Positions 27,406 to 30,395 of a stretch of DNA of 64,000 nt are shown here, piece after piece. A program made the translations under genes and the position numbers. The DNA is taken from the IMG/VR virus record IMGVR_UViG_3300023184_004198, positions 124,001-188,000 of that record, one strand, 5' to 3'. This stretch comes from a virus. Position 1 is the first letter of the stretch; each line of letters begins with the position of its first letter. The notes beneath the pieces are model-generated. The model was given only the letters and a program-made list of their open reading frames with translations, had not been told where the DNA came from and did no database searches.

Positions 27406-27434
27406 TTGACATGCTCACACAAGGCATGTATAAT
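27406..27434 (+). promoter_or_regulatory. Consensus sigma70 promoter TTGACA-17-TATAAT
   Basis: Both hexamers match the consensus exactly (27406-27411, 27429-27434). Followed by AAAGGAG and ATG 27460. Confidence 0.85.
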
Positions 27435-27459
27435 TACTATTCACAACAAAGGAGTCTCG

Positions 27460-27651
27460 ATGACTAATCATGAACAAATCGTAGCCGCTTACGAAACATA
27501 CATTGCGGAAAATGAAAAATTCACAGCCAAGGGTGTCAAAGCCGCGGCTGCCCGTGCCAGAAAAGCCTTGCAAGAAATGAGCAAAGGCATCAAAGAACGT
27601 CGCAAGGAAATCACAGCGGAGAAGGAAGCTCTTGCGGCAGCACCCAAGTAA
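27460..27651 (+). CDS. Histone H1-like (Hc1-type) small basic protein
   Basis: 63 residues from ATG 27460. KGVKAAAARARKALQEMSKG and KERRKEITAEKEA resemble the Hc1/HctA family of bacterial histone-like proteins. Strongest consensus promoter of the window drives it, so abundant early synthesis is likely; it may coat or compact DNA. Family call is by composition and motif. Confidence 0.6.
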   Translation: MTNHEQIVAAYETYIAENEKFTAKGVKAAAARARKALQEMSKGIKERRKEITAEKEALAAAPK

Positions 27652-27844: not shown

Positions 27845-28289
27845 AGTTAATGAGTTGACCACTAGTATAACCAGTGGTATAGGAACCGACACTATCACCT
27901 ACAGTCCAATCTGGAGCACAACAGGCACAGTGGTACCAGGTTATGGTGCTGCCATTGGTAATGGTGGAACTGGATACACCTACACAACCAATACAACCGG
28001 TCCTTGGATTGCCACTGGTAGTAGCCCTGGTACTTTAAGTGTCGAACAAAGCGGTACCATTGATCTGCGAGGCGAAAACCCTGACATCAAGATCAACGGC
28101 AAAAGCATGGTGGCCTGGATGGAAAAGGTAGAGGAACGACTAAACATCCTCACACCTAATCCTGAGCTGGAAAAAGAATGGGACGATTTGCGCAGACTGG
28201 GTGAACGCTATAGAGCATTGGAAAAGAAGTGTAAGGAAAAAGCCCAGATGTGGGAAGCCTTGAAAAAAGTACAACCTAAACAACCATGA
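27801..28289 (+). CDS. Phage structural-type hypothetical protein
   Basis: 162 residues from ATG 27801; the longer frame from 27669 has an unconvincing Cys/Arg-rich extension. Gly/Thr-rich N-terminal half, then DIKINGKSMVAWMEKVEERL and a coiled coil (DLRRLGERYRALEKKCKEKA). I recall this C-terminal block in T4-like phage proteins near structural genes; function unknown. ATGA overlap with nadE. Confidence 0.65.
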   Translation: MSISATPIPTLTLDEVNELTTSITSGIGTDTITYSPIWSTTGTVVPGYGAAIGNGGTGYTYTTNTTGPWIATGSSPGTLSVEQSGTIDLRGENPDIKINGKSMVAWMEKVEERLNILTPNPELEKEWDDLRRLGERYRALEKKCKEKAQMWEALKKVQPKQP

Positions 28290-29074
28290 TACCCAAGCAA
28301 ATGACACCCAAACAACGCATCAAACACATCTCCAAATGGATCCGAGACTATGCCCGCAAGGCCAAGGTAGATACTTTGGTAGTAGGCATTTCGGGCGGTA
28401 TTGATTCATCAGTTGTCAGTGCCTTGTGTGCAGAAACTGGCCTAAAAACTGTTGTGGTACAAATGCCTATTCGGCAGAATCGCAAATTGGACAATCTAAG
28501 TTCAGCACAAGCAGGCTGGCTGTTGGAGCACTATCCCAACAACGTCACGCACATGAGCATGGATCTAACTCCAGTGTTCACTGCATTTGAGAAAAAAGTT
28601 TCTCCTTTTGGAGACAGTGAATTAGCGTTTGCTAATAGCAGAGCCAGATTGCGCATGATGACCCTGTATCAAATTGCACAAAGTCATGGTGGTATTGTGG
28701 TGGGCACAGGCAACCGAGTGGAAGACTTTGGCGTGGGATTCTTTACCAAGTATGGTGATGGCGGTGTGGATATTTCCCCCATTGGCGACTGCATGAAAAC
28801 TGAAGTGTGGGACCTGGGCCGCGAACTGGGCCTGCTGAAAGAAATCATTGATGCACCACCCACAGACGGCTTGTGGGCTGATGGTCGCAACGACGAAGAT
28901 CAGTTAGGCATGACTTATCCTGAACTGGAAAAGGCCATGTTGCAAGACACTTACTCAGGCATTCGCGAGTATGCCACTGCGCCAGAAAAGAAGTTACTCA
29001 AACGTTATCGTGAGATACGTGCAAGAAATCTGCACAAGATGACACCTATTCCTGTTTGCACAATACCTCATTAA
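28286..29074 (+). CDS. nadE: NH3-dependent NAD+ synthetase
   Basis: 262 residues. SGGIDSSV (36-43) is the adenylation P-loop of N-type ATP pyrophosphatases; ANSRARLRMMTLYQIA, VVGTGNRVEDFGVGFFTKYG and PTDGLWADGRNDEDQLGMTY are NadE-specific. No glutaminase domain, so ammonia is the amide donor. It converts deamido-NAD to NAD+, likely supporting NAD supply or countering NAD-depleting defence (inference). Followed by the structured 29150 region. Confidence 0.95.
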   Translation: MIPKQMTPKQRIKHISKWIRDYARKAKVDTLVVGISGGIDSSVVSALCAETGLKTVVVQMPIRQNRKLDNLSSAQAGWLLEHYPNNVTHMSMDLTPVFTAFEKKVSPFGDSELAFANSRARLRMMTLYQIAQSHGGIVVGTGNRVEDFGVGFFTKYGDGGVDISPIGDCMKTEVWDLGRELGLLKEIIDAPPTDGLWADGRNDEDQLGMTYPELEKAMLQDTYSGIREYATAPEKKLLKRYREIRARNLHKMTPIPVCTIPH

Positions 29075-29104
29075 CTACAATGTTAATGACAAAAACACAC
29101 CATT

Positions 29105-29144
29105 TTGACAGTTTTTTGACCGGCCTAGTGCCAAATAAAATAAG
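29105..29144 (+). promoter_or_regulatory. Weak promoter candidate for the 29150 RNA
   Basis: TTGACC 29116-29121 and AATAAG 29139-29144 with 17-base spacer; -10 matches four of six. A +1 near 29151 coincides with the start of the hairpin-rich stretch. Confidence 0.35.
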
Positions 29145-29149
29145 TAAAA

Positions 29150-29455
29150 GTGGTGGTAGAACAACACATTGCAATCAAATAGGATCTTCTACTGCTGATT
29201 GGTATCTTGTCCAATTGAAAAAAACAAGTACCCGTAGCACTGGCAGAGGTTTGTCCAAGCCAACATCAGTGTTCGAAAGAGACTCTCGGAAAGTCTCTTC
29301 GTTGACAACTAGAATTGGACAGGGTCATTTCTCAGGACGCGACCTTGTCCCAAACGAGTATGCCAAGGAGGCCCGAGGTCTATCTATGCTCATCTCAATC
29401 CCTAATCTGTCAACGTGATTTACTCGGGTAACCGCGTACGGCCACGTATTGGCTT
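29150..29455 (+). ncRNA. Candidate large structured RNA, about 300 nt
   Basis: Successive stems readable by eye: GTAGAA/TTCTAC (29156-29192), ATTGG/CCAAT (29198-29215), CACTG/CAGTG (29238-29271) enclosing GGTTT/AAGCC, AGAGACT/AGTCTCT with CGAA/TTCG extension (29274-29301), ten-pair GGACAGGGTC/GACCTTGTCC (29317-29350), TTAC-TCGG-GTAA (29420-29431), GCCA/TGGC (29441-29453). A 120-codon frame crosses it, but its Ser/Thr/Arg-rich product looks unlike a real protein. Not recognised as tmRNA, RNase P or a known intron. Fills the longest gap in the window. Confidence 0.5.
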
Positions 29456-29469
29456 CTAAAGGAAATCTA

Positions 29470-30045
29470 ATGAAATTGAATGTTAATCGACCCAATGCTC
29501 TAGCAACTTGGGCAGGTAGAATTATCAAAACTGTGGCTCTGTTTGCAGTGGCATTTACAGTATGGTCAGTGTGTCAATCACGCATGGAAGACCTAAGACA
29601 GAATCAAAACAATTGGGACCAGTCACATGTGAGTGCCGCAGAACGACTGCGCCAGTTGAACTGCTTGACCCAAAACATCTACTGGGAGGCAGCCTCAGAA
29701 CCATTTGAGGGCAAAGTAGCAGTGGCGCAGGTCACGTTAAATAGAGTGGAATCAGGTAGATTTGCACCCACAGTATGCGGTGTGGTTTACCAGAAGAATG
29801 TGTTTTACGAAAAGGTAGTTTGCCAATTCAGCTGGTTGTGTGAGAGCACACACAAAACACGCCCAGTTTATCAGCCCATGTGGCAAGAGAGCGAACTAGT
29901 GGCCAAGAAAGTGTTGTTGGAAAACTTCCGATTGCCCAGCATGAAAAATGCGTTATACTATCACGCTGACTACGTAAACCCCAACTGGCGCAAGCCAAAA
30001 ATTGACCAAATTGGTCGTCACATCTTTTATGGAGAACGTTCATGA
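29470..30045 (+). CDS. SleB-type cell wall hydrolase, membrane-anchored
   Basis: 191 residues from ATG 29470, AAAGGAAAT upstream. Hydrophobic anchor at about 18-38 (IIKTVALFAVAFTVWSV), then the SleB domain: LTQNIYWEAASEPFEGKVAV with catalytic-type Glu, VTLNRVESGRFAPTVCGVVY, CQFSWLC, and YHADYVNPNW. Family members hydrolyse peptidoglycan. Probably faces the periplasm and aids lysis or wall remodelling. ATGA overlap with the next gene. Confidence 0.88.
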   Translation: MKLNVNRPNALATWAGRIIKTVALFAVAFTVWSVCQSRMEDLRQNQNNWDQSHVSAAERLRQLNCLTQNIYWEAASEPFEGKVAVAQVTLNRVESGRFAPTVCGVVYQKNVFYEKVVCQFSWLCESTHKTRPVYQPMWQESELVAKKVLLENFRLPSMKNALYYHADYVNPNWRKPKIDQIGRHIFYGERS

Positions 30046-30353
30046 ACAACTGGCCCTTTAATCTGCAAACTATCCGTGATTTTTTGAACAACCATTTGCA
30101 CAAAATTTCGGCAGACACCCTGGGCTGGTTGGCAGCCATTGTGTTGCATTGTGCCACTGTGCCTACATTGCTGGCACTAATGACTGGACTTTCAGATCGA
30201 GTGCCCAGTTTGGATGTGGTGGCATTTCTTTGGGCAGGACTGGTCATGCTGTTCCTGCGAGCCATTGTGTTAAAAGACACCCTAAACATCATCACAATTG
30301 GGGTGGGTTTTATAGTGCAAGCCGGGCTCATGGCCTTGATCCTGTTTAGGTAA
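30042..30353 (+). CDS. Three-TM membrane protein
   Basis: 103 residues. N-terminal amphipathic helix, then hydrophobic segments about 28-50, 60-76 and 82-102. Coupled to the wall hydrolase, so it could be a holin or holin-like partner (inference). The stop codon lies in the next cassette hairpin. Confidence 0.65.
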   Translation: MNNWPFNLQTIRDFLNNHLHKISADTLGWLAAIVLHCATVPTLLALMTGLSDRVPSLDVVAFLWAGLVMLFLRAIVLKDTLNIITIGVGFIVQAGLMALILFR

Positions 30354-30395
30354 TACTTCAGTAGTATTGACCGGAAATTGCGATCATGCTATAAT
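30350..30395 (+). promoter_or_regulatory. Hairpin plus promoter cassette (copy 7)
   Basis: GTAATACT-TC-AGTAGTATTGACC: the hairpin runs into the -35 TTGACC (30367-30372); TATAAT 30390-30395. Here hairpin and promoter overlap. Confidence 0.75.

Follow-up and report, generated by a model that had tools for sequence, protein, structure and literature searches.

A conserved structured RNA directly upstream of a phage cell-wall hydrolase gene, a candidate riboswitch-like leader

A folded RNA between nadE and a hydrolase gene

This locus raises the question of what a phage encodes in a gap between two genes, and what it might mean for the gene that follows. The window, i.e., the whole 64,000-nucleotide stretch of DNA analysed computationally here, comes from a virus record of 212,614 bases, and its gene-free gap (29075-29469) runs from the stop codon of a NAD synthetase gene (29074) to the ATG of a hydrolase gene (29470). 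The upstream neighbour, nadE (28286-29074, plus strand), matches Pfam NAD_synthase (E 2.5e-49). The product of the downstream gene (29470-30045, plus strand) is a SleB-like cell-wall hydrolase that has a single hydrophobic segment at its N-terminal end and matches Pfam Hydrolase_2 (E 1e-24), SleB, PDB 4f55 (E 6e-11) and PHROG endolysin families. Hydropathy shows three hydrophobic segments in the small protein specified by the next gene (30042-30353, plus strand), and the two genes therefore likely form a lysis cassette; this small protein gave no family match and is holin-like by position only. Protein comparison detected distant relatives of the next-but-one protein in Delftia, Acidovorax and Synechococcus phages. 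Elsewhere in the neighbourhood, a near-consensus sigma-70 promoter with an extended TG (TTGACC-17-TATAAT, 30367-30395) precedes a phrog_27048 gene two genes downstream of the hydrolase, and a histone H1-like protein of the Hc1 type (Pfam Hc1, E 4.6e-13) is encoded at 27406-27651.

A large structured RNA had been proposed for the gap by a first-pass annotation made from the window alone, and the gap really does encode a folded RNA, of about 330 bases, directly ahead of the hydrolase gene. The folding energy of the plus strand gave a z-score of -2.2, with 3 of 100 shuffles folding equally well, and the minus strand was similar (z -1.8). As the energy is only modestly above chance, we relied on comparative evidence. 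Relatives were found from NAD synthetase homologues and by RNA-only DNA-pattern scans of viral contigs, and 24 distinct RNA sequences, from the window and related uncultured phages, were compared in a plain MAFFT alignment. They fall into four sequence groups, namely clade A (the window, L002, L003, L004, L007, L087, L092 and L095), clade B (L030, L020, L036 and L089), clade C (L061, L088, L101, L103, L104 and L105) and clade D (L149, L177, L254 and L255), with L106 and L193 outside them; L256 is a copy of L193.

All elements of the RNA lie on the plus strand. Its core (29278-29415, about 140 nt) comprises hairpin A, a junction-closing stem (P_B), P_C, P_E and an invariant candidate pseudoknot, and is preceded by variable hairpins on the 5' side. 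The first of these (GUGGUGGUAGAA / UUCUACUGC, 29150-29195) was obtained with RNAalifold on clade A, and other clades have a hairpin of unlike sequence at its position; the second (GGUAUCUUGU / ACAAGUACC, 29201-29232) and the third (with a GUCCAA loop, 29238-29271) come from folding and clade A comparison. Within the core, hairpin A (AGAGAC / GUCUCU, loop UCUCGGAAA, 29278-29298) was defined by covariation across the 24 phages, and P_B pairs CGUUGACA (29300-29307) with UGUCAACG (29408-29415), with 99% of its cells paired. The ten-pair stem P_C (29317-29326/29341-29350) encloses a 14-base loop (29327-29340), exactly as first described, and the other stems of that description are likewise present, as are the three 5' hairpins, hairpin A and P_B. 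P_E is a small hairpin (GCC-AAGGA-GGC, 29362-29372) with 97% of its cells paired and little variation, and sits within the most conserved stretch of the RNA, GAGUAUGCCAARGAGGCCCGAGGUCU. Around it, the putative stem P_D (GAGUAU / AUGCUC, 29356-29391) is tentative: it is plausible in clade A and L193, and its pairing in clade C was unsupported in the 24-sequence comparison. Between the core and the ribosome-binding site, RNAalifold on clade A placed a further hairpin (UACUCGG-GUAA-CCGCGUA, 29421-29438), and the Shine-Dalgarno sequence of the hydrolase, AAAGGA (29458-29463), lies 6 bases before the ATG. A reading of the AAGGAGG of P_E as a CsrA decoy or Shine-Dalgarno mimic was considered and rejected, the motif being unconserved outside clade A.

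Selection on the RNA across 24 phages

The comparison shows that the stems are selected as RNA across the 24 phages. Helix cells were paired in 94.3% of cases, as opposed to 85.1% in shuffled alignments (none of 500 shuffles reached the observed value), and the proportion was 34-44% when the structure was slid along the alignment. Two-sided compensatory cells numbered 71, against 24.8 in shuffles (again 0/500), a count that, with kin sequences inside the clades, does not equal a number of independent events. The presence of three to four pair types at single positions, together with the slid controls, makes chance or relatedness an unlikely explanation. The compensatory changes are located in hairpin A, where the covarying pairs are CG/AU/UA and AU/GC, in P_B, where one pair changes from GC to AU, and in P_C, where nine of the ten pairs show two-sided changes, and RNAalifold recovers the named helices unaided. 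The covariation test to which the proposal of a structured RNA was open thus gave a strong positive result. Identity between the window and its seven clade A relatives is 93-96% in the core, as against 77-84% in the hydrolase gene and, for relatives that have it, 78-87% in nadE.

A pseudoknot between the loop of hairpin A and the core is also likely. The loop strand UCUCGG (29284-29289) and a second strand, CCGAGG (29373-29378), keep UCGG and CCGA complementary in 24/24 sequences, with four to seven pairs, and in clade D the motif is kept despite a one-base shift. We regard this pseudoknot as likely rather than proven because its pairs vary on one side only.

The RNA is a family absent from Rfam. 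No Rfam 15 covariance model matched the window at its gathering threshold; at relaxed thresholds the best match in the gap had an E-value of 1.5 (17.1 bits, the cut-off being 55), and the RNAs of the relatives gave no match either. ARAGORN and Rfam recognised neither tRNA-like ends nor a tag frame of tmRNA, in keeping with the initial impression that this is not tmRNA, RNase P or a group I or II intron. INPHARED phages hold no copy of the window RNA, and GenBank phages gave no match for it or for the RNA of L106. Scans of bacterial genome contigs returned 60 short-pattern matches, none of which has TTGACA in the 70 bases upstream of the motif, as the RNA would need; as far as tested, these are chance matches. 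The closest published precedent that we found is a glutamine riboswitch accompanying the Melnitz tmRNA, which is a different RNA and whose authors speculate on riboswitch-linked lysis control (PMC9004378). Matches of Melnitz to L193 were weak and mostly inside an annotated protein gene, and were dropped.

Linkage to the hydrolase gene and a second leader RNA

The RNA, referred to below as type 1, has a single copy in each genome that bears it, in every case immediately before a hydrolase gene. A covariance model found one strong copy in each RNA-bearing record, as single matches of 97-157 bits (E-values of the models built here are rough), and its match in the window spans 29277-29435 with 156.9 bits. 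Every type 1 copy directly precedes the hydrolase gene even though the upstream neighbour changes, and in the records tested there were no copies away from the hydrolase and no mobile stand-alone copies. In 22 large related phage records the model found no type 1 RNA; these have the hydrolase with a short leader only, or a hydrolase that does not adjoin nadE. On the hydrolase tree, clade A is placed among RNA-minus phages, and presence of the RNA needs three changes, e.g., one gain and two losses. NAD sensing, considered as a link between nadE and the RNA, found no support, since nadE also occurs in phages lacking the RNA, and a different gene lies upstream in RNA-bearing relatives such as L087, L092, L095 and L193.

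In other relatives, this place before homologous hydrolases is taken by a structured RNA of another kind, type 2. This leader, of about 250 bases, was present in 48 of 80 loci in a search of hydrolase relatives. In an alignment of L257:1204-1466 with 37 other loci (e.g., L258, L260 and L304), two-sided cells numbered 147 as compared to 42 in shuffles, and an invariant CUCC is complementary both to an invariant GGAG in the core and to the Shine-Dalgarno sequence in 38/38. A DNA-pattern scan detected the type 2 motif in at least 120 contig stretches; 106 of the 120 precede a hydrolase, 13 end at a contig edge, and the remaining one is L355. On the reverse strand of L355, the type 2 RNA is separated from a hydrolase-like ORF by a transposon-like insertion, whose own ORFs resemble, by eye, TnpA and TnpB of an IS200/IS605 element. 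Type 2 is absent from Rfam and had no match among GenBank phages. Neither covariance model recognises members of the other type, and the two did not co-occur in the records tested. The hydrolase leaders of six further loci (L300, L313, L317, L320, L324 and L330) belong to neither type and are hairpin-rich, and are possibly additional types of leader RNA.

A possible switch ahead of a lysis gene

The region downstream of the core differs among clades, and the putative expression platforms are unconserved between them. In clades C, D and L106, a CUCC is complementary to the GGAG of the Shine-Dalgarno sequence, and folding predicts this pairing with p>0.9 in L061, L088, L105, L106, L149 and L177. 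For the window, the Shine-Dalgarno sequence is not predicted to be firmly sequestered; here CACGUAUUGGC (29443-29453), just before it and identical in 8/8 clade A leaders, can form an alternative helix with 29409-29417. This helix and P_B are mutually exclusive, as both use the 3' strand of P_B, and are nearly equal in energy (forced energies of -58.5 and -57.0 kcal/mol, respectively, with a minimum free energy of -59.3 kcal/mol, the pseudoknot uncounted). In L193, an intrinsic terminator, a hairpin followed by T6, was read by eye after the core; it is missing from the list of an automatic terminator scan, a loop too long for that scan being the probable reason. These 3'-side features could gate expression.

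We lean towards reading the RNA as a riboswitch-like structured cis leader of the hydrolase mRNA that controls when the enzyme is made. The RNA is structured, conserved and placed in the 5' leader of the hydrolase gene, and we favour a cis leader over a free-standing RNA because it occurs only before the hydrolase and is followed by varying platform-like 3' elements. The analogous type 2 RNA, with its CUCC complementary to core and Shine-Dalgarno sequence alike, speaks for this reading as well. We infer a cis mode of action, an ability to switch, and lysis timing as the output. In such a mechanism, the conserved core (hairpin A, P_B, P_C, P_E and the loop-to-core pseudoknot) would fold during transcription of the leader, and the 3' strand of the core together with the sequence right after it would serve as the expression platform. 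The P_B 3' strand would pair instead with CACGUAUUGGC beside the Shine-Dalgarno sequence in the window, CUCC would sequester GGAG in other clades, and a terminator would follow the core in L193. A signal (metabolite, ion, or protein of the phage or the host) would stabilise or unfold the core and thus set the timing of hydrolase production and of lysis. Like riboswitches, the RNA has a conserved folded core with a candidate pseudoknot followed by putative, clade-variable platforms (anti-Shine-Dalgarno stem, alternative helix or terminator); unlike known riboswitches, it has no Rfam match, combines a core of about 140 nt with variable 5' hairpins and precedes a cell-wall hydrolase. T4 offers a parallel for structured RNA at the beginning of a lysis gene, a small local hairpin in early transcripts that limits translation of the lysozyme gene e, whereas here a large conserved multi-stem RNA lies upstream.

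A rather unlikely, if serious, alternative is a stand-alone phage RNA with a promoter of its own that acts in trans, be it as regulator, decoy or ribonucleoprotein scaffold, and only happens to lie before the hydrolase. Most relatives do have such a promoter: TTGACA-N17/18-TATAAT elements (9-12 of 12 matches) lie just upstream of the RNA in the non-clade A relatives with enough sequence. The weak promoter noted by the first-pass annotation is borne out at the equivalent place in these relatives, as a near-consensus one; for the window itself it did not hold, no sigma-70 site between 28900 and 29900 passing a promoter scan. Because the window has no recognisable promoter ahead of the RNA, the latter is possibly transcribed from an upstream gene. 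At the 5' edge of the RNA, the perfect palindrome ATTAAC-N6-GTTAAT (29070-29087) is the sole match in the 64 kb window, where 0.20 would be expected with up to one mismatch; it is kept with small changes in the seven clade A relatives and is possibly part of an unrecognised promoter or operator. The L193 terminator, which follows the RNA and precedes the gene, could just as well mark the end of a separate small RNA, and in its size and its several 5' hairpins the type 1 RNA is similar to other large phage RNAs. Against a trans-acting RNA stand the unvarying linkage of both RNA types to one gene, including the 106 type 2 stretches, and the Shine-Dalgarno-pairing elements found outside L193 in place of a U-run terminator, none of which was seen between RNA and gene in the other relatives. 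The large ornate RNAs GOLLD, ROOL, OLE and HEARO are likewise large, structured and partly phage-borne; the present RNA is smaller, has a different fold and no Rfam match, and is fixed before a lysis gene. The suggestion of a new large phage RNA is thus upheld as regards its absence from Rfam, while the evidence favours a cis leader over a free-standing ornate RNA.

Less probable still is a cis-acting RNA of processive antitermination, which would modify RNA polymerase for the downstream operon. The known antitermination RNAs HK022 put and Bacillus EAR are cis RNAs just after a promoter, and three features would suit this function: the position of a structured RNA right behind a promoter where an operon begins, a candidate pseudoknot and the terminator directly downstream in L193. 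However, the RNA accompanies one gene instead of a variety of long operons, Shine-Dalgarno-pairing elements would be unexpected, and there is no detectable similarity to put or EAR and no relation in sequence to any family in Rfam. The highly conserved unpaired core nucleotides and the candidate pseudoknot would fit a ribozyme that cleaves itself, or an RNA-processing element, within the leader, but this reading appears very improbable: the gap matches no ribozyme family in Rfam, and there is no evidence of cleavage. Finally, a short protein-coding gene in the frame 29056-29418, doubted from the outset, can be dismissed: although the frame from an ATG at 29089 is open for 110 codons in 6/8 clade A phages, the ORF is not under protein-level selection, with 157 nonsynonymous against 62 synonymous changes across relatives, an even spread over codon positions (71/80/68), shifts of the frame in L002 and L004, a different or broken frame in other clades and no Pfam match. 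The proposal of a structured RNA has thereby also withstood its second refuting test, conserved synonymous substitution in this frame.

Returning to the riboswitch-like leader, it is conceivable, though doubtful, that two unrelated riboswitch-type classes, neither of them listed, alternate in one slot, and that these phages make release of the hydrolase depend on a metabolite, ion or protein that they sense as infection ends. Phage lysis timing is known mainly through holin proteins; if true, this would be RNA-sensed lysis timing. A large conserved RNA before a lysis enzyme, exchangeable in related phages with a second RNA of unlike sequence, would make RNA-based lysis control directly testable by reporter, and the two families are compact, alignable and searchable elsewhere.

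RNA-minus phages illustrate what precedes the hydrolase when the RNA is missing. In many RNA-minus nadE relatives, the spacing between nadE and hydrolase is only about 75-120 bases, and this short leader contains a hairpin, a GAGUAAGUAAAAC motif ahead of the ATG and, in some, a promoter-like TATAAT. Comparison by eye of RNA-plus and RNA-minus leaders delimits a 5' leader module in the window (29088-29150, plus strand) ending in AUAAGUAAAAG, and RNA-minus phages have related sequence immediately ahead of the hydrolase ATG. RNA-bearing phages have the same module up to CUAAGUA, then about 250 bases of RNA and a strong Shine-Dalgarno sequence, again by eye. Among the RNA-minus loci (L005, L011, L016 and others), many lack a clear Shine-Dalgarno sequence and have GAGUAAGUAAAACUACC directly before the ATG.
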